A stretch of DNA of 64,000 bases from Clostridiales bacterium (GTDB lineage Bacteria > Bacillota > Clostridia > Oscillospirales > Oscillospiraceae), in NCBI GenBank assembly GCA_029265975.1, contig JAJUGN010000001.1, positions 1 to 64,000 of the forward strand. Reading direction: 5' to 3'. Below are positions 20,838 through 30,230 of the stretch, one piece after another. A program made the position numbers and the translations under genes. A model generated the notes under the pieces. The model worked only from the letters and a program-made list of their open reading frames with translations. It searched no databases and was not told where the DNA came from. How positions within the stretch are numbered: the first letter of the stretch is position 1; the number at the start of each line of letters is the position of its first letter.

Positions 20838-21626
20838 TTATTTTTTCAGCGGTATGCCGTTCTGGCAGGGAACCGCCACCTGGCATTTGCCGCAGCCGTA
20901 CATCGGACTATACCTGGTCTTCGTGCCCTCGACGAACACCTGGCAGACAAACTGGTCCTTGCCTTTTTCAACGCTTATCGCATTTGCCGGGCAGCGCCTT
21001 GCGCAGGCTCCGCACATCGTGCAGTATTCATATACTTCGCTGTATTTCCTTATGCTCGGCTCAAAAAAAGCGGTCGTTACTACACTCCCGAAGCGCCCGG
21101 CTATGCCCTTTTCCGTTATCAGGCCTTTTGACAGCCCGAATGTACCGAGGCCGCATATGTAGGCTACATGGCGTTCGGACCAACTGCTGGTGAGCGGCAA
21201 ACCGTTCAAGTCCCTGTAACCCCTGAATCTGGAATCCAAAGACGGCACCGCTGCCTCAAAGCCGGCGTTCCTTAAAGCGTCTGCGAGGTGCTGCGACAGC
21301 TTGTTTATTATTATCTGACCCTCCCACCTGCCGTGAAGCCACTCCTCGGAGGGTTCCGTCCTGTCCGAAACATTGCTGCATTTTACGGTTTCGGTAAACG
21401 GAAGGAAGAAAGAAACAACGCTTTTTGCACCCGGGAGCCACTCGCATGGCGCAAGGAAGCCCTCGCCCACTATATGCGCCCTTTTATATTCATCAAAGAG
21501 CGGATCGCAGGCGTCCCCGTAAGCGAACAGCGGCGTTTCATATATCCTGCCGCCTGAAGCCAGAACATTTTCTTCCGAAGCCGCCAGATACTCGGACGCC
21601 GCGGCTTCCAGCCATATTTTATTCAT
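20838..21626 (-). CDS. QueG-like 4Fe-4S double-cluster protein
   Basis: A 262-residue protein related to the C-terminal part of epoxyqueuosine reductase. A DUF1730-like N-terminal half is followed by a ferredoxin-type cluster motif 'CTMCGACARRCP' near residue 203 and a second cysteine group 'CGKCQVAVPC' near 246-255. QueG also needs a cobalamin site and HEAT-like tail; this shorter protein lacks the tail, and similar short proteins in anaerobes are electron-transfer or dehalogenase-like proteins of unknown substrate. True QueG activity is therefore doubtful. The start overlaps the stop of the upstream SGNH-like gene by four bases (ATGA), so the two are co-translated. Confidence 0.75.
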   Translation of the reverse strand: MNKIWLEAAASEYLAASEENVLASGGRIYETPLFAYGDACDPLFDEYKRAHIVGEGFLAPCEWLPGAKSVVSFFLPFTETVKCSNVSDRTEPSEEWLHGRWEGQIIINKLSQHLADALRNAGFEAAVPSLDSRFRGYRDLNGLPLTSSWSERHVAYICGLGTFGLSKGLITEKGIAGRFGSVVTTAFFEPSIRKYSEVYEYCTMCGACARRCPANAISVEKGKDQFVCQVFVEGTKTRYSPMYGCGKCQVAVPCQNGIPLKK

Positions 21627-22651
21627 CTTAAATTCTCCCTAAGTCTGCTTGCTACCAGAGTGACCTTTTTTTCGTACTCTTCGAGCTCCGCGTTCCATTC
21701 TTCCGAATATTCGCTATCGTTGCGATGGTCCGGTACGGTGTAATTCCGGCTTATATACTGACCAAGATACACCGTGACCTTTGTGGCGCCGCTGGAATTC
21801 ATATGATAGCCTTTGTCCCTTGTGTCGGTCATCCAGTTAAGGCCTATTTCGTCGCGGCATAAGTTCAGATCCAGAAAGGTTATATTTTTTTGCTTGGCGT
21901 ACTCAGAAACCGCGTTATGCCTTGCGTAATTCCACGACTGGGAGGTAGGCATTTCAACGAACAGCAGCGGTATGTTCTTTTCGGCGCACAATTCGACGAT
22001 TTTGTTGAGGTACATCAGATTAGAGAGCTTTATCTCCTCTTTTTCGCTTGTCGGGATCATATACTCTTTGCCGTTATACGGGTCGATTTTGTTGCTTATT
22101 CCGAAGCCCTTGGACTTGCTTTTCCATGTATGCAAGGGTTTTTTTGTGAAATCCTCAAACAAAAGCGACTTCCAGCGGTCGTGGAATTCCACCACCGGAA
22201 ACGCATTCTGTATTCCGTTTGCAATTGAAATATTCAGTCTCATTGGATCGAGCCCGCCCTCATATATTGAGTCCGTTTCAAAAATAACAAGCTTCGGACT
22301 CTGACATGTCAGGGCCTCCCTGAGCAGAATATAGGCCTGACGCACCGTCTGCCTCGCTTCGCCCGAAACATACGATGTATAGCCGTGATTTTTCCAGAGA
22401 ACCATCGGAGAAAACGCGCTGTAGAGATCGCTGTTTCCCACAGCTATTATGTCAATGCTGTTATTCGGCTCTCCGTAAAAGCCTCTGGCGTTGAAATAAT
22501 TGATGCCGTTTTCCCTGATATTATGCTTTGGCATAAATATGTTCGATGTCACTGTCAGCAAAAGCGCAAAAATCCCGATAAATGCGACTGCCTTTATGAG
22601 AGGGCTGTAAACATGTATTTTTCTTTTATATGTCGACGGAAGAGTTAACAT
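21623..22651 (-). CDS. Membrane-anchored SGNH/DltD-like protein
   Basis: A 342-residue protein with one N-terminal membrane helix (about 13-35) and an extracellular domain. 'IIAVGNSDLYSAFSP' resembles the GDS block of SGNH hydrolases, and 'KGYHMNSSGATKV' near the C-terminus could supply the catalytic His, as in DltD/AlgX-like proteins. Such proteins often transfer or remove acyl groups on cell-envelope polymers, but no dlt genes are near, so the function is open. Start ATG 22651 follows AGGAG at five bases; an earlier frame start at 22771 would add 40 atypical residues. The gene lies downstream of the hairpin array and overlaps the QueG-like gene. Confidence 0.65.
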   Translation of the reverse strand: MLTLPSTYKRKIHVYSPLIKAVAFIGIFALLLTVTSNIFMPKHNIRENGINYFNARGFYGEPNNSIDIIAVGNSDLYSAFSPMVLWKNHGYTSYVSGEARQTVRQAYILLREALTCQSPKLVIFETDSIYEGGLDPMRLNISIANGIQNAFPVVEFHDRWKSLLFEDFTKKPLHTWKSKSKGFGISNKIDPYNGKEYMIPTSEKEEIKLSNLMYLNKIVELCAEKNIPLLFVEMPTSQSWNYARHNAVSEYAKQKNITFLDLNLCRDEIGLNWMTDTRDKGYHMNSSGATKVTVYLGQYISRNYTVPDHRNDSEYSEEWNAELEEYEKKVTLVASRLRENLR

Positions 22652-22854
22652 GGCCACTCCTGAAATAATAAAAGTTATAAAACGCCTTACGGGCCCGGAC
22701 GACGCAACCCCGCTTCTCGCAAGGCTTTTTGAGCGTAGAAGTATTATAAGCCATTTGCATCTGCATATCAAGCTTTTCGGCTAAAAATTGCGTGCCCGTA
22801 TGCGCAAATACGGCTCCCGAACCTAATGATTTTGAAAGAAAACCGTGTTACGCG

Positions 22855-23115
22855 CATGCCCCGATTTTCGATGAAAATCGGGGCATGGCAGCTTGTCAAA
22901 AAACTTGTTTACAGCAAAAAAGCTTCGCAGAATTTCCGCCACGAATGGCGGAAACAAAGTCAAATCCGTCATTTCCAGCGGCGTGTACGTCGGAAATGAC
23001 ACCTCTCATGACAGGCGCGGCAGAGCAGCCGTCATGCAACCCCCTTGTCAAAAAAGCCCAAAGGGCTTTTTTGACAGCCTGGCATGCCCCGATTTTCGAT
23101 GAAAATCGGGGCATG
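22855..23115. repeat. Array of perfect hairpins bounded by two identical 33-bp palindromes
   Basis: Two identical copies of CATGCCCCGATTTTC-GAT-GAAAATCGGGGCATG (22855-22887 and 23083-23115; 15-bp arms) bound a 195-bp segment. It contains TTTCCGCC/GGCGGAAA (22933-22954), GTCATTTCC/GGAAATGAC (22968-23000), CATGAC..GGC/GCCGTCATG (23007-23036) and TGTCAAAAAAGCCC/GGGCTTTTTTGACA (23046-23076). The last can act as an intrinsic terminator on both strands and ends the surface-protein operon. The rest of the 22652-23171 gap shows no gene. The layout resembles a mosaic REP/MITE-like element, but the family is not recognised. Confidence 0.75.
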
Positions 23116-23171
23116 GTCTGAATGATGAAAAAAGGTTTTGAATAAATCGGTTCCGGTCTTATTACGCAGTC

Positions 23172-25808
23172 TTATGATATTACGAAGGTGGCGGTTATTG
23201 TTCCAGAGCTTGCGGAATTGGAGGTAGTATTCGCCTGCAAACCTACGGAGTCAAAAACCGTAAAGAAGTTGGCGGGAACTCCCGAGAAGGTGTAGCCTGT
23301 TTTTGCGGAGAGACTGATCGTCGCCGTATAAGTTCCCGCTACGCTGAAGCTTGTAACGGTCTTTGAGCCCCTCTTCCATGTGATGCTGGAGGACGTGAAC
23401 TGATCCGTCGCCGTTACCGATGTCGGGCATGTTCTGCCGAGACCCACCTGCCCGCTCAGATTTACCTGAGAGATGTTGACTGTTGCCGCCGTTACCTTAG
23501 CCGTCGCGGCGCTTGTAACAGAGCCTGTATATCCTCCTGTCCCAGTAACAGTGACCTTGATATAGCGGTTGACCTGTGACGGCTGGATGGTATATGTCGG
23601 CCCAGTTGCGCCGGAGATGTTCGTGTATATGCCGCCAGACGTGAGTGAGCTCTTCCATTGATAAGTCACGGTGGCGCCGGCAGGTACGGGATTTGCCGTC
23701 AGCGTCTGCCCGACCTTGGCAGTGCCGGTAATTGAAACCGAGGTCAGGGCTGTGGACGCCACCGGCCCCACATATGAGCTTACGGCAAAATCAGTATAGA
23801 TTCCGGTTCCGGTGACCTTAACCTTGATATACTTCTGGTAGTCGGAGCTCTGAAGGACATAAGTGCTTGATGTTGCACCCGCGATGTCCGTATATATTCC
23901 GCCCGCCGTAGAAGACGACATCCACTGGTATGTGACTGTCGCGCCGCTTGGCAGTATGGAAGAAGCCGTAAGAGTATTGCCGCATTTGGCGGTTCCGCTG
24001 ATCGAAACGCCGGTTACGGGCGTCGTTACCGGGCCGGCTGAGGGGCTCGATACGGAGCCTTCATAATTGCCGGTTCCCGTTGCCGTGACCCTTATGTATT
24101 TGCCGACGTCGGACGACTGTGTCGTATATGTGGCAAGCGTGGCGCCGCTTATTGCGCTCCATGTGCTGCCGTTTGTGCTGTTGTACCATTGATATGTCAC
24201 CGTGGCGCCCGATGGAGCCACCGAGCCGGCAGTTAGAGTATTGGTGCTCCCGCTCGCCCAGGCGGCGTTGCCGCTTATAGCTCCCAGGCTGTCAAGAGAG
24301 CGTTTGGCAACCGGCCCCACGCTCGGGCTCGTCACGGTGCCGCTGTAATTTCCGGTTCCGGTGGCCTTCACGACTATGTACTTGCCTATGTCGTTTGCGG
24401 TAAGCGTATATGTTGAGGAGGTCGCGCCTGAAATATCTGTGAACGGACCGGAGGATGACGCGCCGCTCTGCCACTGATAAGTCACGGTCGCGCTGTATGG
24501 CGCCACAGCGCCCGCGGTCAGTGTATTTGTGTACTGGGGCGTGCCCGTGGGCGCGGCTATCGAAGTAATAGGGTATGTCACAGGGCCGATATAGGCGCTG
24601 GTAACGGTCCCTCCATAGTTGCCCGAGCCTGTCGCCCTGACTACTATATAGTATCCCACGTCTGCGTTTGTCAATGTATAAGTATTCGATGTCGCTGAAG
24701 CTATGTCGCTGTATGGACCAGCTGGATCAAGAGCTCTCTGCCACTGGTAGGTTACCGTAGCGCCGCTCGGCGTAACCGCACCCGCTGTGAGCGTTGAGCC
24801 GTATTGCGGGCTGCCGCTAATCGGTCCTATTGAGATCAGGGAGGTTGCCACCGGGCCGACGTAGTCGCTTGTAATTGTGCCGGTGTAGCCGTTGTAGCCC
24901 GTAACCCTGAGCTTTATGTAATAGCCCTCGTCTGCGGCCTGAACTATGTAAGTGCTGCTCGTTGCGCCCGAAATGTCGGTATAGGCTCCGCTGGGGGATG
25001 TGCTTCTCATCCACTGGTATGTGACCGTGGCTCCGCTCGGTGTGAGATTGGCAACTGAAGAAAGGGTATTTCCGGCGGCCGGCGCACCCGTTATCGTTAC
25101 TGTTCCGGTTATGGAAGTCGCGGAAACCTGCAGCGGAGAGGAACTGACCGACCCTGTATAGCCGCCCGTGCCGGTGGCCACAACCTTGATATAGTATCCG
25201 TAGTCGCCCGCCTGGAGAGTATAAGAGCTGGCAGTGACCCCGGTGCTTGTCCATGTGCTGTTGTCGAGGCTCCTCATCCAGTTATAGGACGCGGTGGCCC
25301 CGGAAGGAAGAACCGACGCAACGGATAGCGTGTTGCCTACGCTTGCGATGCCGCTGACGGTTACCCCCGTGAGCGGGCAGGCGAGCACCGGGCCCGAGTA
25401 CTCACTGGTCACGGAGCCCGAGTAGTAGCCGTATCCGGTCGCGACTACTCTTATAAATTTTCCGTAGTCGTTCGTATTAAGGGTGTAGGAGCTGGATGTG
25501 GCTCCCGTAATATTGCTGTACGGGCCTCCGGGCGAGCTGCCGCTCATCCACTGATAGTTTGCGGTGGCGCCTGAGGGCGTGAGCTGCCCAGCTGTGAGAG
25601 TGCTGCCCACCTGAGGAGTACCCGATGTCGCGCCTATTGCCGTAAGGTCAAAAGTAGCGGAGGCGTTTATGGATACCGTGTAGAAAATAGAATTGAAGAC
25701 ATACTTTGATAGAGAGGGTGTAAAGGAAAATACCGAAAAAATCAGCACAAGGAAAAGAAGAAGACCTATTTTCCGGACAGCTCCCCCGCCCTTTTTCCGT
25801 CTATTCAA
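23172..25808 (-). CDS. Secreted protein with eight Ig-like tandem repeats
   Basis: An 878-residue protein. The N-terminus has a basic stretch, a membrane helix (about 12-30) and 'SLSKYVFNS', similar to the SipW-type signal peptides of its neighbours. From about residue 52 eight repeats of 85-92 residues follow, each with 'G.TLTA......SGATVTYQW', 'I.GATSSTYTL...D.G.YI.V.ATG.G.Y.G.V.S'; this is a bacterial Ig-like surface repeat. About 100 C-terminal residues form a different beta-rich domain ending in 'TFVIS'. No LPXTG motif, so it is probably held by the fibre system or another protein. Start is TTG with AGGAGGGG six bases upstream. Last gene of the SipW/TasA-like operon. Confidence 0.85.
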   Translation of the reverse strand: MNRRKKGGGAVRKIGLLLFLVLIFSVFSFTPSLSKYVFNSIFYTVSINASATFDLTAIGATSGTPQVGSTLTAGQLTPSGATANYQWMSGSSPGGPYSNITGATSSSYTLNTNDYGKFIRVVATGYGYYSGSVTSEYSGPVLACPLTGVTVSGIASVGNTLSVASVLPSGATASYNWMRSLDNSTWTSTGVTASSYTLQAGDYGYYIKVVATGTGGYTGSVSSSPLQVSATSITGTVTITGAPAAGNTLSSVANLTPSGATVTYQWMRSTSPSGAYTDISGATSSTYIVQAADEGYYIKLRVTGYNGYTGTITSDYVGPVATSLISIGPISGSPQYGSTLTAGAVTPSGATVTYQWQRALDPAGPYSDIASATSNTYTLTNADVGYYIVVRATGSGNYGGTVTSAYIGPVTYPITSIAAPTGTPQYTNTLTAGAVAPYSATVTYQWQSGASSSGPFTDISGATSSTYTLTANDIGKYIVVKATGTGNYSGTVTSPSVGPVAKRSLDSLGAISGNAAWASGSTNTLTAGSVAPSGATVTYQWYNSTNGSTWSAISGATLATYTTQSSDVGKYIRVTATGTGNYEGSVSSPSAGPVTTPVTGVSISGTAKCGNTLTASSILPSGATVTYQWMSSSTAGGIYTDIAGATSSTYVLQSSDYQKYIKVKVTGTGIYTDFAVSSYVGPVASTALTSVSITGTAKVGQTLTANPVPAGATVTYQWKSSLTSGGIYTNISGATGPTYTIQPSQVNRYIKVTVTGTGGYTGSVTSAATAKVTAATVNISQVNLSGQVGLGRTCPTSVTATDQFTSSSITWKRGSKTVTSFSVAGTYTATISLSAKTGYTFSGVPANFFTVFDSVGLQANTTSNSASSGTITATFVIS

Positions 25809-25832
25809 TGCACTCCCCTCCTTTTTATCAGG

Positions 25833-26360
25833 TTAAGCGTTCGCCTGCTCGGCGTCCACCTGTATTTTAACCGACTGGGATTGACCCGCGTACTGGGTGC
25901 TGTCTTCACCCTGCGGCCATGTTACCGTAAGCGTATAGATATGTGTGGTCTGGATCCCGTGCTCTAAGTATACCCAGCCGCCCCCCGCGGAAGGGTATGT
26001 GTCGCTGGGCGTCAGCGTATATGTAAGCGGTATGACCTTCTCCGAAGGATCAAAGCTCACGGAAAGCAGGTATTTCATCAAAACTTCGCTGACATCCGAA
26101 TCCTTGTAGTTTCGTATCTGAAATGAGTAAACCAAAACGCTGCCCGGCTGCACGTTTCCGACGGATATCCCGCCGCTTATGCTTGCGATCGGTATATCGT
26201 TCAGCGTCGCGCTTATGGGCACATAATCGAAGGCGACCTTAGCAACAACAGCCGTGTCGCTTGCCGATCTCACCACCGTGTATCGTGAAAAGCTGGCGAC
26301 TGTTACTGAAAAAGTGACTAGCACCAAGTATAAAAGAAGTAAAGGCAGCCTTTTTTTCAT
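25833..26360 (-). CDS. Small secreted protein with SipW-type signal peptide
   Basis: About 175 residues. 'MKKRLPLLLLYLVLVTFSVTVASFSRYT' is a signal peptide with the Ser-Arg/Lys-Tyr pattern after the hydrophobic core that also marks the TasA-like protein at 28393 ('SGTYSKYT'). The mature part has 'NVQPGSVLVYSFQIRNY' and 'VIPLTYTL', which align by eye with the TasA/camelysin-like block (PG..G...F.V.N ... IP..Y.L) of the other operon members. Probably a second fibre or minor subunit processed by the signal peptidase encoded next upstream. ATG at 26360 is preferred (AGGTG six bases before) over GTG at 26369. The gene sits 24 bp before the Ig-repeat gene. Confidence 0.7.
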   Translation of the reverse strand: MKKRLPLLLLYLVLVTFSVTVASFSRYTVVRSASDTAVVAKVAFDYVPISATLNDIPIASISGGISVGNVQPGSVLVYSFQIRNYKDSDVSEVLMKYLLSVSFDPSEKVIPLTYTLTPSDTYPSAGGGWVYLEHGIQTTHIYTLTVTWPQGEDSTQYAGQSQSVKIQVDAEQANA

Positions 26361-26369
26361 CGTCAACAC

Positions 26370-26885
26370 CTATTTTTTCGAACGCTTCAACCTGCCCAGC
26401 ATATCTGGGAATTTATAAATCACGAAAATCAACAGGACCATAATTAAAATGCCTATCGGTGTCCTGAGAAAAAGCGTAATGTTCCCTATCGAAGGTATCC
26501 TCAGGATGACTTTGCCCTCTATCTCCGAAATTGAAACGGCCTGGTCGGAAACATTATTGAAGTCCCCTTTGGTGATGAACCTCGTCGGATCTCCGTCTTG
26601 AAGCCCCACTATCCTGTGTGTCACGAAGGTTCTTCCCCATCGGTATGTAACAATATCGTTTACCTGATAACTTTTCTGCTCCCTCAGGATAAGCATATCG
26701 CCTATCTCGTAGGTCGGTCGCATGCTGCCGGAAATTACGACTACCTGCGTAAATCCGAAGACCTTTGGAAGATTATTTTTAAAGAATACGCGGGCAATTA
26801 TTGTGTAAAGGTTCACAACGAGCATTATTGTAAGAGCCGCGGCCAAAACAAACTGCAAAACCTTCAACAGCTTATGACGAAACAT
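26370..26885 (-). CDS. sipW: SipW-type signal peptidase I (second copy)
   Basis: A 171-residue membrane peptidase with an N-terminal helix (about 10-30), catalytic Ser in 'VISGSMRPTY' (about residue 53) and, where most bacterial enzymes have Lys, a His in 'TFVTHRIV' (about 90). This is the Ser-His or ER-like S26B type represented by Bacillus SipW. 'FITKGDFNN' is the conserved C-terminal block, followed by a second helix and a basic tail. SipW removes the signal peptides of the biofilm proteins TasA and TapA. It lies between a TasA-domain anchor gene and a SipW-type substrate gene. It is the second such enzyme of the operon, which suggests separate substrate sets. Confidence 0.9.
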   Translation of the reverse strand: MFRHKLLKVLQFVLAAALTIMLVVNLYTIIARVFFKNNLPKVFGFTQVVVISGSMRPTYEIGDMLILREQKSYQVNDIVTYRWGRTFVTHRIVGLQDGDPTRFITKGDFNNVSDQAVSISEIEGKVILRIPSIGNITLFLRTPIGILIMVLLIFVIYKFPDMLGRLKRSKK

Positions 26886-26898
26886 AAATTACCCCGCT

Positions 26899-28287
26899 TC
26901 AATTGGATTCGGCGTCAATAGTGATATTTATAACATAGTAATTCACGGTCTGCTGCTTTGCGAGCTCCGTGTCGTTCTCATTGCTTTGCGAAACCCATTT
27001 CCACTGCAGCGTATAGTAAGTATATTCGCCGGAGGATAGCTCCTTGCCGTTTACCTCTATCTCCTCGGCACTCTTCCACTCGTCATCGCCCACATAGCTC
27101 TTGTCGAGTTCTGAGATCCCCGAAAGCAGCCTGTATCTTATAGGCAGCCTGTAATCGGATTCGGAAAGCTTGAGCCAGTACCTCAGTGTGGATGAATCGG
27201 GATTATAAAGTCTGAACAGATACAGTCCGCTCGCTCCTGGAGCTATGACCTTTTCACCGTTAATAAGCTTCACGCCAGTGTCTTCGCGAGGAGCGAATAT
27301 GTCCACCTGGGAGATCTGCGTCCAGACCTTTGCCGAGCCGTAGTAATTATCCTCCGCCCTGATTATGGGGCTTGAGCTTGGCTGCGGCGTCGAGGGCTGG
27401 GTTCCCCCGGTCTGGCTTTCGCCTCCGGAGGACTGCTCGGAGGTGGGCTGAGGCCCGGGCGTCCCGGAAGGAGCCGGAGTAGCTGACGGCGTCACAGCGG
27501 GAGACGGTGTGGCGGATGGAACCGGCGGGAAAGCAGCGGATGGCGAAACAGCAGAAGGAGTTGTAAAAGGCGCGGAAACGCCAGGTACCGGAGAAGCGCC
27601 TGACTGGGGCCGGTTCTGCGCTCCAGGTGTGTTTGCGGCGGGACTGCTCCCCGGATTGCCGGTCGGGATGTTCGGGCCCTGCCCTCCCGTTGCGTCGGTC
27701 GTGCTTACGGTGCCTTTGACGCTTGTTACTGTCATTTTCTTATCATTGTCGCTTAGCTTGAGCTCAATTTGAACGCTTATCGTTTTAAGCGAGATCTTAA
27801 CCGAATAGTCGCCGTTGTCGAGCCGTATGACCTGAGCCTCGCTTACCTGCGGCGTCTTTTCGACTTGCACCCTGCAGGAGGCTATGGGCGTTCCGTTCTC
27901 GATTGCGTTTATAGTATGGCTTCCGGGCTCAACGCCGGGAAATGAAAAATAGCCTGCCGCATCAGTTCTTGTATATCTCGGCGTGCTTCGAAGCTCCACC
28001 ACTCCGTTGGAATACGGGGTGCCGTCGGAAAAAAGTATCCTGCCGGTCACGCTGAAGGTCTCCGACACCGCCGGAGTCGGCGTGGCTGCGGGCTTGAGCC
28101 TGTTTCCCGGAGTCAGTACTATTGTATCAATAAGCTTTCCGTAATAACCTATGCCCTGGACGGTTTTTCCTACCAAAAAGCCGGTAGTGGAAAGCGTGAC
28201 GGCGGAAAGAAACATTATTATCGCAAGCAGGAGGCTGCGTCTCTTTTTTCTGCTGTATCTGATTTCCCTTTCCAAAGAAATATTCAA
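26899..28287 (-). CDS. Membrane-anchored TasA-like domain protein with P/S/T stalk
   Basis: About 462 residues. A strongly basic start ('YSRKKRRS') is followed by a membrane helix, a carboxypeptidase-regulatory-like (CarboxypepD_reg/CNA-B-like) beta domain near residues 75-150, a Pro/Ser/Thr-rich stalk of about 120 residues, and a C-terminal domain with 'IAPGASGLYLFRLYN', 'LPIRYRLL' and 'YTLQWKW'. The last domain matches the TasA-like module of the 28393 protein. It could anchor or nucleate the fibre, as TapA does in Bacillus, which is inference. I start at TTG 28287 (AAAGGCGGTG six bases upstream); GTG 28317 is the alternative. Lies between the TasA-like gene and the second sipW. Confidence 0.65.
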   Translation of the reverse strand: MNISLEREIRYSRKKRRSLLLAIIMFLSAVTLSTTGFLVGKTVQGIGYYGKLIDTIVLTPGNRLKPAATPTPAVSETFSVTGRILFSDGTPYSNGVVELRSTPRYTRTDAAGYFSFPGVEPGSHTINAIENGTPIASCRVQVEKTPQVSEAQVIRLDNGDYSVKISLKTISVQIELKLSDNDKKMTVTSVKGTVSTTDATGGQGPNIPTGNPGSSPAANTPGAQNRPQSGASPVPGVSAPFTTPSAVSPSAAFPPVPSATPSPAVTPSATPAPSGTPGPQPTSEQSSGGESQTGGTQPSTPQPSSSPIIRAEDNYYGSAKVWTQISQVDIFAPREDTGVKLINGEKVIAPGASGLYLFRLYNPDSSTLRYWLKLSESDYRLPIRYRLLSGISELDKSYVGDDEWKSAEEIEVNGKELSSGEYTYYTLQWKWVSQSNENDTELAKQQTVNYYVINITIDAESN

Positions 28288-28392
28288 AAGAAACACCGCC
28301 TTTCCGAGAAACTTCACTGATAATATTTTTCCGCCCTTATGCTCACCCCTGCAGCTTGAGAAACTGCAGGGGTGATCTGGCTTGTTTAATTA

Positions 28393-29055
28393 TTAGGCGT
28401 CGAGCTGGGTGACTGTGGTCTGGATTGCGAGCGTTACGGTAGCGGTTCCGCCAATTCCGAGGGCTGTGTCGGCCGAGTCGGTCTGACCGGTTCCCGCGGA
28501 ATCAAAAGCCCATGTCCACTTGAGGTCGACCGTATTTGTGACCGGAGTTGTGCCGTCCGATGCGTTTATGGAAGCGATGGCCATGGCGGACTGGAGCGCT
28601 GAAAGGCTAGCATAAGTGCCGCCGCTGTATGTTCCCGTGAGCTTCGCGGAGTATCTCTGCGGATTGCTTCCGAGCGTGTAGTAGATGGGGATGTTGCTGT
28701 CGTTTGTTTCGGTGAGGACAAAAGTCGCTCCAACCTTGACTTCGCTCAGGTTCTCAACAGTGAAGTTAAGCGTTCCGGTGGTACCGGGGGCTATGATCTT
28801 TGTCGAGCCGGAGCCGTATACGCCTGCGTCGGTATGCTTGAAAATGTCGATTGCGCCGGATGAAGAAGACTGGGTAAGGACGTGAGCTCCGCCCGTATCC
28901 TTAAGGTTGAAGGCAAATTTTGCCACACGGACGGTATCCGTAGCCGTTACCTGTTGCGTATACTTCGAGTAGGTTCCGGATACCAGGGACGCGGTGATCA
29001 TGGTCATTACAAGGGTAATCGCTGCGAGCTTCATTGATAAACCACTTTTTTTCAT
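28393..29055 (-). CDS. TasA/camelysin-like secreted fibre protein
   Basis: A 220-residue protein with a SipW-dependent type signal peptide ('MKKSGLSMKLAAITLVMTMI' then 'SGTYSKYT'), followed directly by 'VRVAKFAFNL', the layout seen in TasA and CalY. The mature domain has 'IIAPGTTGTLNFTVEN', 'IPIYYTL' and a Trp-containing strand 'LKWTWAF', the shared module of this operon. TasA-type proteins polymerise into beta-rich extracellular fibres in biofilms. It follows the first signal peptidase by 31 bp and has GGGAGG before the ATG. It is probably the major subunit. Sequence similarity to Bacillus TasA is only at the level of layout and motifs, so the fold assignment is inferred. Confidence 0.78.
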   Translation of the reverse strand: MKKSGLSMKLAAITLVMTMITASLVSGTYSKYTQQVTATDTVRVAKFAFNLKDTGGAHVLTQSSSSGAIDIFKHTDAGVYGSGSTKIIAPGTTGTLNFTVENLSEVKVGATFVLTETNDSNIPIYYTLGSNPQRYSAKLTGTYSGGTYASLSALQSAMAIASINASDGTTPVTNTVDLKWTWAFDSAGTGQTDSADTALGIGGTATVTLAIQTTVTQLDA

Positions 29056-29086
29056 ATGTATTTCCTCCCGTTTATTTAAAGACTAC

Positions 29087-29773
29087 TCAGTATTTCCTGT
29101 TTTCATCTGTATTCGACCTGTTTGCTTCGTTGGCGCCGCCGGATTGTTTTTCGTTTTCAAGGCTGGAAATCATCTGCCGCATTCTTCTTATTTCCGCCTC
29201 TAGATCGTCGACCGATTTTACCTTAGGACGGTCGTAGAGCTTCCTTCTTATAAAGTCATATACGATAAACAGCAGGAGCGGAAGCGCTATGAACAACACC
29301 ATTCCTACCGGAGTCTGCATAAACAGGGCCGTATTGCCAAGCTTCGGTATATCCATTACCATCCTGCCCTCTACGGCGTTGCCGAGAACCGGCAGTCTGT
29401 CCTCGGTATTGTTGTTATCGCCCTTCGTAATAAACTGGCGCACCCCGTTCACTACTCTGACGTCGATAATCCTGTGGGTTATAACCGACTTGCCTTCCCT
29501 GAAAGCTATTATGTCCCCCTTTACGAGGCTGTTGGGGTCGGTTTCCCTGACTATTACAAGGTCTCCGGCTTTTATCGCCGGATACATCGAATCCGACAAG
29601 TCGATGAAAGGCTTGAATCCAAGGAAGCTGGGGACTTTGTCCGGGAACATGAAGGATTTCACTATAATCGTCACGTTCGCGATAAGCATCGGGATAAGTA
29701 TTATACAGAGTATTACCCCGAATACGGACATCGCCTTTTGCCCGGCAGTTCTGACCGATGATTGCTTTTTCAT
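29087..29773 (-). CDS. sipW: SipW-type signal peptidase I (first copy)
   Basis: A 228-residue S26B-type signal peptidase: N-terminal helix, catalytic Ser in 'DLSDSMYPAI' (about residue 62), catalytic His in 'SVITHRIIDV' (about 100), 'FITKGDNNN', then a second helix (about 157-175). A cytoplasmic coiled-coil-like tail ('DLEAEIRRMRQMISSLENEK') is absent from the second copy. First gene of the six-gene operon, so it is most directly exposed to the upstream c-di-GMP riboswitches. Expected role: cleave the SipW-type signal peptides of the TasA-like and related proteins. GGAGGA precedes the ATG. Confidence 0.9.
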   Translation of the reverse strand: MKKQSSVRTAGQKAMSVFGVILCIILIPMLIANVTIIVKSFMFPDKVPSFLGFKPFIDLSDSMYPAIKAGDLVIVRETDPNSLVKGDIIAFREGKSVITHRIIDVRVVNGVRQFITKGDNNNTEDRLPVLGNAVEGRMVMDIPKLGNTALFMQTPVGMVLFIALPLLLFIVYDFIRRKLYDRPKVKSVDDLEAEIRRMRQMISSLENEKQSGGANEANRSNTDENRKY

Positions 29774-29901
29774 TTACAGTCCTCCAATTTTTAAAGAAAG
29801 GCGCTCGCTTTCTTTGTTAAAAAAAACAGAACTGCATACAACATCTATAATCAGCCTGCCGCCGATGCCGCAAGCCCAACGTATATGCAGTACCCTTAAA
29901 C

Positions 29902-30003
29902 AAAAAAGCTACTGCAAATACATGGCAGTAGCAGCTGGCTGCCCTGGACGAACCGAGGGCCCTATTAGCTTTGCGTCACAAGCTTTCGCTTGCTTTGCCC
30001 TTA
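29902..30003 (-). ncRNA. c-di-GMP-I riboswitch (GEMM), proximal copy with terminator
   Basis: On the minus strand 'GGGCAAAGC', a hairpin with GAAA tetraloop (CAAGCGAAAGCTTG), 'GACGCAAAGCTAATAGGG' and a terminal helix with 'CAGCCAGCTGCT' reproduce the c-di-GMP-I aptamer (GGCAAA...GAAA...GACGCAAAGCC). The 3' end runs into GCTACTGC/GCAGTAGC followed by six T (29902-29932), an intrinsic terminator sharing bases with the aptamer's end, so ligand binding should decide termination. An ON switch seems likely, but the closing helix could not be drawn with certainty. It sits about 130 nt before the first sipW. Confidence 0.85.
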
Positions 30004-30078
30004 TTACTCTGTATATCTCAATTCTGGCCGCAAGGTGTCGAAAAGCGAATAAGCGTAAAATTAGGAATAAATGGCAAT

Positions 30079-30182
30079 AAAAAATGCTACCGCAATTACA
30101 AATGCAGTAGCAGCTGGCTGTCCTGGAGAAACCGAGGACCCTATTAGCTTTGCGTCGCAAGCTTTCGCTTGCTTTGCCCTTA
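30079..30182 (-). ncRNA. c-di-GMP-I riboswitch (GEMM), distal copy with terminator
   Basis: The second aptamer is nearly identical over its core (GGGCAAAGCAAGCGAAAGCTTG then GACGCAAAGC) and is the first to be transcribed. It ends in its own terminator, GCTACTGC/GCGGTAGC with a T-run (30079-30111). Two complete aptamer-plus-terminator units in series should give steeper or more stringent control than one. Confidence 0.85.
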
Positions 30183-30201
30183 TACTTATATTATTGACCA
30201 T

Positions 30202-30230
30202 ATATTAACATGTGGCAAAAAAATTGTCAA
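30202..30230 (-). promoter_or_regulatory. Promoter of the riboswitch/SipW operon
   Basis: On the minus strand TTGACA (30230-30225), 17-bp spacer, TAATAT (30207-30202). Transcription would begin near 30195, about 13 nt before the distal aptamer. The whole 29774-30401 gap is thus leader, promoter and the yebC terminator. Confidence 0.65.

Follow-up and report, generated by a model that had tools for sequence, protein, structure and literature searches.

Fibrous matrices of the TasA type are known in detail from Bacillus, where they are under SinR control (PMC9674648, PMC10151520). In the tapA-sipW-tasA operon of Bacillus subtilis, as described in the sections of these papers drawn on here, a single endoplasmic reticulum (ER)-type signal peptidase, SipW, is encoded together with a TasA-fold subunit, SipW-type signals and an accessory protein for anchoring or assembly, TapA, which donates a strand. 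The TasA/CalY/CapP system of Bacillus cereus comprises two co-assembling TasA-type subunits and a dedicated assembly protein, is independent of sortase, and has, in the part of the source considered, one SipW for all three proteins, which are encoded in separate transcription units of the SinR regulon (PMC13082335). Within the Clostridia, sipW-bsaABCRSD of Clostridium perfringens gives rise to a SipW-dependent secreted polymer for pellicle biofilm, with several secreted accessory proteins per operon; here too the portion consulted describes one SipW, and the gene set is a different one (PMC7395162). The subject of the present analysis is a six-gene operon on the minus strand of a 64,000-nucleotide (nt) stretch of DNA from a Clostridiales bacterium of the Oscillospiraceae (assembly GCA_029265975.1, contig JAJUGN010000001.1, positions 1 to 64,000; hereafter the window), which encodes two SipW-type peptidases and TasA-like proteins behind two riboswitches for cyclic dimeric guanosine monophosphate (c-di-GMP).

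Like its B. subtilis counterpart, the operon is short and combines ER-type SipW, a TasA-fold subunit, SipW-type signals and an accessory protein, but its SipW enzymes belong to two lineages, and it adds a membrane anchor carrying a TasA-like domain, a second subunit, an immunoglobulin (Ig)-like repeat protein and c-di-GMP-I riboswitches. TapA of B. subtilis is not known to have a membrane stalk. Structurally, both the anchor model and subunit 1 also match the archaeal bundling pili (7ueg; AbpX). A riboswitch ahead of a surface adhesion gene is reportedly found in Bacillus thuringiensis as well, where a c-di-GMP riboswitch precedes the single collagen adhesion gene cap, unaccompanied by a fiber or peptidase operon. 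In the open literature searched, which left most subscription papers outside, neither a description of a two-SipW TasA operon nor a paper joining a c-di-GMP riboswitch with SipW was found.

The locus is best read, with a probability of about 0.7, as a c-di-GMP-induced operon for a heteromeric TasA-type fiber. At high concentration, c-di-GMP would bind both leader aptamers, stabilize their P1 helices and block both terminators, so that the six genes are transcribed. The Ser-His peptidases would then cut both TasA-like subunits and the Ig-repeat protein at Ala/Ser|Lys/Arg-Tyr, a motif seen in all three, with an aromatic P2′ residue that the general signal peptidase I should handle badly. An aromatic P2′ residue is described as hindering that enzyme while SipW processes TasA, other residues near the site mattering too, according to the part of the source used (PMC10269814). 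The freed N-terminal strands may, judging by the fold, polymerize by donor-strand exchange as in TasA. The 472-amino-acid (aa) protein would stay uncut and membrane-held by its N-terminal helix, its stalk carrying the TasA-like domain through the wall as the putative foot of the fiber, and the Ig-repeat protein is a candidate fiber-linked coat or adhesin. A gene set of this kind, recurring in anaerobes and with TasA-like subunits that exceed no Pfam or NCBIfam cut-off (among the proteins scanned), would tie a fiber directly to c-di-GMP and, compared with the Bacillus TasA matrices, adds a second peptidase and an anchor in membrane and sortase forms. This makes two questions testable: how a TasA-type fiber is attached to the cell, and by what means these bacteria turn it on.

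Operon and leader

All six genes are complete open reading frames (ORFs) on the minus strand, separated by 31, 75, 13, 0, and 24 nt, and they follow, in 5′ to 3′ direction, a likely promoter and two riboswitches with terminators (Table 1). No minus-strand terminator between the genes was found by the consensus scan, which also missed terminator 2 and returned counts close to those for shuffled sequence.

Table 1. Features of the operon in 5′ to 3′ order, with positions in the window (pLDDT, predicted local distance difference test)
Feature	Position	Strand	Support
Likely sigma-70-type promoter	30202..30230	-	TTGACA-17-TAATAT, TG before second hexamer; consensus scan 10/12
c-di-GMP-I riboswitch aptamer 1	30106..30188	-	RF01051 59.9 bits, gathering 35
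Intrinsic terminator 1	30085..30112	-	Consensus scan; 5′ arm overlaps 3′ side of aptamer P1; hairpin -15.9 kcal/mol
c-di-GMP-I riboswitch aptamer 2	29927..30009	-	RF01051 57.0 bits, gathering 35
Intrinsic terminator 2, T tail	29902..29932	-	Read from sequence, missed by consensus scan; hairpin -12.2 kcal/mol
sipW1, ER-type signal peptidase I, 228 aa	29087..29773	-	TIGR02228 100.2 bits; sipW1 group in tree
TasA-like subunit 1, 220 aa, signal GTYS|KYT	28393..29055	-	AF2 pLDDT 83.2; Foldseek 8aur_A; VIA Z 7.2
Anchor, 472 aa	26899..28317	-	N-terminal helix, transthyretin/CpD-like domain 88-204, Pro/Ser/Thr stalk 209-326, TasA-like C-domain 332-471; no sorting signal
sipW2, ER-type signal peptidase I, 171 aa	26370..26885	-	TIGR02228 85.5 bits; sipW2 clade 100/99
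TasA-like subunit 2, 178 aa, signal ASFS|RYT	25833..26369	-	hhalign to subunit 1 profile 99.7%, E 6.8e-27; profile only, no structure model
Ig-like repeat protein, 878 aa, SipW-like signal SLS|KYV	23172..25808	-	ZirU NF040485 204.1 bits vs 100, 7 stretches

At gathering scores, an Rfam scan of the whole window returned exactly two matches, both of them the c-di-GMP-I riboswitches of this leader; in a narrower scan, the sister model RF03167 occupied the place of aptamer 2, scoring 53.4 bits, below its own gathering score of 59. The promoter call depends on its location, 13 nt before the aptamer, because nine promoter-like sites were seen in the region against 8.1 expected, and that of terminator 1 likewise leans on position (six terminator-like sites against 9.3 expected). 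Directly 3′ of each aptamer lie a hairpin rich in GC and a run of T, and in both switches the four-base P1 pairing AGUA/UACU takes up the first arm of the terminator. P1 and terminator thus share a strand and are mutually exclusive. This arrangement, which the nearest relative (L053) repeats at both of its aptamers with AGTA/TACT kept, is that of an on-switch, from which we infer the direction of control. The genome (1.97 Mb, 89% complete) encodes 14 GGDEF domains. On another of its contigs (L046:6716-7270; G000:C13:51715-52269), three consecutive c-di-GMP-I aptamers precede the gene for a 284-aa protein whose Pfam matches all stay below cut-off.

Peptidases, subunits and anchor

Both peptidases exceed the curated cut-off of TIGR02228, the archaeal/ER-type signal peptidase I (51.85 bits), while staying under the Pfam cut-offs for S24 and S26 and, at 90.6 and 66.7 bits, under that of the Bacillus SipW equivalog NF046067 (190 bits). 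Ser62, His100, and Asp119 are kept in both and invariant in 6/6; across the relatives, the catalytic Ser and His are present in 81/81 sipW1 and 60/60 sipW2 rows, Asp in 76/81 and 59/60. A maximum-likelihood tree was built from 154 SipW rows (82 sipW1, 62 sipW2, and 10 other SipWs of the family; bootstrap not settled). In it, 61 of the 62 sipW2 form one clade (100/99), sipW1 forms one weakly supported group (64/87), and a third (100/91) contains the other SipWs; the one sipW2 outside its clade (L122_s2) sits on a branch of length 2.11. Distances within sipW1 and within sipW2 are correlated over 60 loci (Mantel r 0.871, 0/2000 permutations as high, with shared species history left in). By these sequence criteria, sipW1 and sipW2 represent separate, old lineages that have been maintained together. 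A recent local duplication was considered and rejected, as the within-locus identity has a median of 28% and sipW2 is closer to the sipW1 of its locus than to any other sipW2 in 1/60 loci.

The fold of subunit 1 provides the link to TasA. The structure models rest on alignments of 52 (subunit 1) and 53 sequences. Searched with Foldseek against the PDB, the model of subunit 1 matched the TasA fiber 8aur_A (E 1.7e-4, probability 1.00), the sole match at E≤0.001 among 1005 at E≤10. The TasA fiber was also the top row in VIA (138 residues aligned), followed by chaperone-usher pilins (Z 6.5), archaeal bundling pili (5.8), and the TasA monomer 5of2 (5.3). The profile of the anchor is related to that of subunit 1 (hhalign 99.7%, E 3.3e-26) and to that of subunit 2 (98.2%, E 5e-14). 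The known TasA and TapA families came into view only below their thresholds: for camelysin (PF12389, gathering 22.5), subunit 2 scored 14.1 bits (E 0.043), and subunit 1 and the anchor had no match at E≤0.1; for the TapA equivalog TIGR04087 (80 bits), the best score was 12.8 for residues 2-52 of subunit 1 only, the anchor having none at E≤0.1.

A site [AST][KRH][YFW] after the hydrophobic core is present in 69/72 proteins of gene 2 (subunit 1 and its counterparts) and in 53/57 of gene 5 (subunit 2), and in 3/65 anchors; in the window, the motifs are SKY (subunit 1), SRY (subunit 2), and SKY (Ig-repeat protein). The absence of a cleavage site from the anchor fits a protein retaining its N-terminal helix. 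A clean Lys/Arg split between genes 2 and 5 was looked for and not found: AKY accounts for 59/70 motifs of gene 2 (62 with Lys), ARY and AKY for 15 and 13 of the 56 of gene 5, some misfires of the script included.

The start codon assigned to the anchor by the ORF tool is GTG, and the true start may lie downstream. Its CarboxypepD_reg domain exceeds the PF13620 cut-off (41.7 vs 32.3 bits), and residues 88-205 match transthyretin in VIA with Z up to 9.0. In the model (pLDDT 75.2, predicted TM-score 0.49), an N-terminal helix precedes a beta domain (88-204), which is separated by disordered sequence (209-326) from a further beta domain at the C-terminus; in Foldseek, 8aur stands at rank 25 (E 2.5e-3, probability 0.99) and 7ueg at rank 42 (probability 0.98). 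An earlier, purely sequence-based reading of the locus (the first-pass annotation) had proposed two Ser/His peptidases of the SipW type, three proteins with the N-termini TYSKYT, SFSRYT, and SLSKYV, and a fourth with a TasA-like head on a membrane anchor and Pro/Ser/Thr stalk. The peptidases were recovered with their catalytic residues, all three N-termini were found in the proteins, and the anchor has the helix, the disordered stretch and a C-domain linked by profile to subunit 1.

Among 65 anchor orthologues placed by gene order, 38 end in a sorting signal (34 recognized by script, the rest from their tails), 18 end right after the TasA-like domain as in the window, and 9 were left unsorted. 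Sortase genes were present in all 27 genomes tested of the 38 with a sorting signal. For the membrane type, 17 of the 18 loci were tested (the eighteenth, L103, is from the same genome as L057) and 14 were positive, those without sortase being L053, L055, and L081; the unsorted L061 and L096 have some. The window genome yielded 0 PF04203 sortases at its 89% completeness. The anchor ends support an anchoring role by two putative routes, membrane and sortase/wall.

Spread of the gene set and competing explanations

The relatives are the best 80 of 487 loci fetched by a sipW1 profile built from three loci having this gene order, and hence not a random sample. The order sipW1-tas1-anchor-sipW2-tas2 recurs in 52/80 loci, and in 49/62 with at least 5 kb downstream; seven more have the first four genes, five lack sipW2 between anchor and tas2, one ends after the anchor, and 15 are otherwise arranged, of which 13 have less than 2.4 kb downstream. 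Among the 52 ordered loci are ones from Lachnospiraceae, Oscillospiraceae, a single member of the Desulfotomaculaceae (L073) and, from the Actinomycetota, a single Adlercreutzia (L077); the culturable commensal Blautia sp. MSJ-19 (L069) also shows the complete order. In Eggerthella sinensis (L070), sipW2 is missing from the set and a c-di-GMP-I aptamer lies 33 nt upstream of sipW1; lateral transfer into the Actinomycetota (L070, L077) is possible. The gene set is patchily distributed: the subunit-1 profile was positive in 7/398 genomes of the phylum, that of the window included, and subunit 1 alone in 2/5 genomes of the genus. Within the family, 27/150 genomes have a SipW match; in 20 stretches read from 16 of these genomes, this operon was seen in 3 genomes (G000, G014, G088; window included). 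Another cluster, also recurrent, is found in L035, L038, L040, and others and contains two SipWs that belong to another clade; its L035 copy encodes a 541-aa protein with an AAA_5 match (22.9 vs 22 bits) as well as one of 629 aa with no Pfam match.

With a model built from eight aptamers, a c-di-GMP-I aptamer was found at most 600 nt upstream of sipW1 in 13/80 loci, all 13 over the Rfam gathering score, and a terminator-like hairpin follows in 10 of them (weak in L102; not in L070, L100, and L115). In L056, three aptamers head sipW1, a further TasA-like gene, and the anchor block, and L100 and L055 have other aptamers ahead of TasA-like genes; the orthologues L033 and L034 have no c-di-GMP-I aptamer. 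Where at least 600 nt upstream are available, an aptamer accompanies 0/33 sortase-type and 10/17 membrane-type anchors (Fisher 1.9e-6, phylogeny uncorrected; 9/65 anchors unsorted). In the family sample, RF01051 occurs at E≤0.001 in 45/150 genomes and, among the matches listed, adjoins a SipW in three (G000, G024, G144), so most c-di-GMP-I switches in the family serve other genes. A search of 46 genomes for c-di-GMP-II returned nothing and, having had no positive control, is uninformative. Two further SipW loci of the family, differently composed, also carry c-di-GMP-I aptamers. In one of the same genus (L047:5978-10083), two aptamers precede the genes for a 182-aa protein resembling SipW substrates and for two S26-like peptidases (sub-cut-off in Pfam), and in its counterpart in the window genome (L048) neither the aptamers nor the 182-aa gene were seen. 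In L049:6837-8466, one aptamer lies ahead of a sipW of another clade and a 191-aa protein.

Several results weigh against reading the locus as a c-di-GMP-induced operon for a TasA-type fiber. The VIA match of subunit 1 stays below the tool's Z of 8 at a root mean square deviation of 4.8, with TM-scores of 0.41/0.39; given these modest values and chaperone-usher pilins close behind, the fold alone does not single out TasA. A PDB sequence search with the three profiles found no TasA chain (the anchor profile reached AbpX at E 0.13-0.18 and FliL at 0.0039), and the TasA-like subunits of the window had nothing over Pfam or NCBIfam cut-offs. As there is no sequence route to TasA, the likeness is one of fold, seen for subunit 1, and the subunits are not filed in families of either collection. 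For the anchor, Foldseek gives no matched range and places mainly dioxygenases and carboxypeptidases at the better ranks, and the VIA list has no TasA row, its places being taken up by matches of residues 84-206 to transthyretin and hydroxyisourate hydrolase, so that it is silent on the C-domain. P1 is only 4 base pairs long, and forcing it without ligand costs 13.5 and 5.5 kcal/mol. Finally, no aptamer was seen within 600 nt upstream of sipW1 in 67/80 loci (6 of the 67 have less than 600 nt upstream); c-di-GMP control is therefore not general to the gene set.

That c-di-GMP turns the same fiber operon off, the ligand favoring termination, is distinctly unlikely: some c-di-GMP-I switches are off-switches, and the aptamer core and the terminator coexist in the lowest-energy fold of leader 1, but UACU is common to P1 and the 5′ arm of the terminator in both switches, the pairing is kept in L053, and no separate anti-terminator was seen for switch 1. 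The better match of subunit 1 to the fiber form 8aur than to the monomer 5of2, and the conservation in the gene order of an anchor bearing a related domain, speak against secreted monomeric or matrix adhesins without an ordered anchored fiber; this explanation, to which the small alignments behind the models and the other roles proposed for camelysin-type proteins lend some weight, is unlikely. A sortase-assembled pilus is highly improbable. The 38/65 anchors with a sorting signal and the sortase in 27/27 of their tested genomes would suit it, but the window has neither sorting signal nor, in its 89%-complete genome, a sortase found, and sorting signals are likewise missing from the subunits inspected in the window, L033, and L034. 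A sortase in the missing 11% of the genome, if present, would reopen the question of wall anchoring, not that of polymerization.

Doubtful, yet to be taken seriously, is the idea that one peptidase suffices, with sipW2 being redundant or playing a part in regulation or structure, and that substrates are not divided. In five loci gene 5 directly follows the anchor; L096 and L128 have a later sipW, and L070, L102 (Lactonifactor longoviformis), and L130, which retain genes 1, 2, 3, and 5, have none. In the genomes of these three, the best match to a sipW2 query is, by its coordinates, the locus's own sipW1. The overlapping cleavage motifs of genes 2 and 5 point the same way. Against it stand further, weaker SipW matches in the three genomes (3, 5, and 2 in all), which could stand in for sipW2, and the almost complete conservation of the sipW2 catalytic residues in an old lineage that varies along with sipW1 (species history again included). 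The proposal of the first-pass annotation that two peptidases may serve different substrates is supported as to their distinctness as separate lineages and reads too much into the locus as to the substrates. Its wider view of a larger relative of the TasA/SipW systems agrees with the TasA-like fold of subunit 1, the anchor with its related domain and the conserved gene order. Of the two findings it had named as contrary, predicted folds unrelated to TasA and absence of the gene order from other genomes, neither occurred, because the structural comparison with TasA led to 8aur_A by both Foldseek and VIA and the order recurs among the relatives. It mentioned neither the two riboswitches, which lie inside the upper boundary it had drawn, nor the sortase-anchored form that is in the majority, nor the fuller gene set of the relatives.

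Beyond the c-di-GMP-induced TasA-type fiber proposed for the window, the relatives may, tentatively and at less than even odds, represent a widespread undescribed class of donor-strand pili in anaerobic Bacillota and some Actinomycetota. Two old peptidase lineages would mature two subunits in turn, and a third TasA-like domain would be fixed to the membrane or, by sortase, to the wall; in some lineages, expression would be gated by c-di-GMP through leader riboswitches able to head each block separately (as in L056).

Downstream genes and flanking sequence

The 878-aa Ig-repeat protein also matches AIR9 Ig (PF23197, 103.8 bits vs 27.5), and no DNA-level tandem repeats were found in 22700-28400. 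Among 18 loci listed, an additional protein with a SipW signal (246-290 aa) occurs in 8, and 11 encode a protein of 1,600 aa or more, in some cases truncated by the end of the locus; the window and L053 have the 878-aa protein in place of these. Giant proteins of 1,810-2,135 aa end the operon in L130:14429-19909, L102:14467-19932, L070:14406-19838, and L033:10980-17387, and share, by eye, a similar C-terminus, TYR..F......PYN.IV. Nothing exceeded the cut-offs for the giants of L130, L102, and L065 in Pfam and of L130 and L065 in NCBIfam.

Further downstream in the window, a 382-aa protein (21623-22771, minus) has only a sub-threshold GDSL match (E 0.023); a protein of like size also lies downstream of the operon in L053. 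Just downstream of the operon, a dispersed repeat of ∼190 bp (22889-23081; queried as 22860-23120) is flanked by two copies of a 33-bp palindrome. It occurs in at least 39 further places of the 1.97-Mb genome with 90-96% identity (40 of 166 candidates scored), and several contigs begin at a copy.

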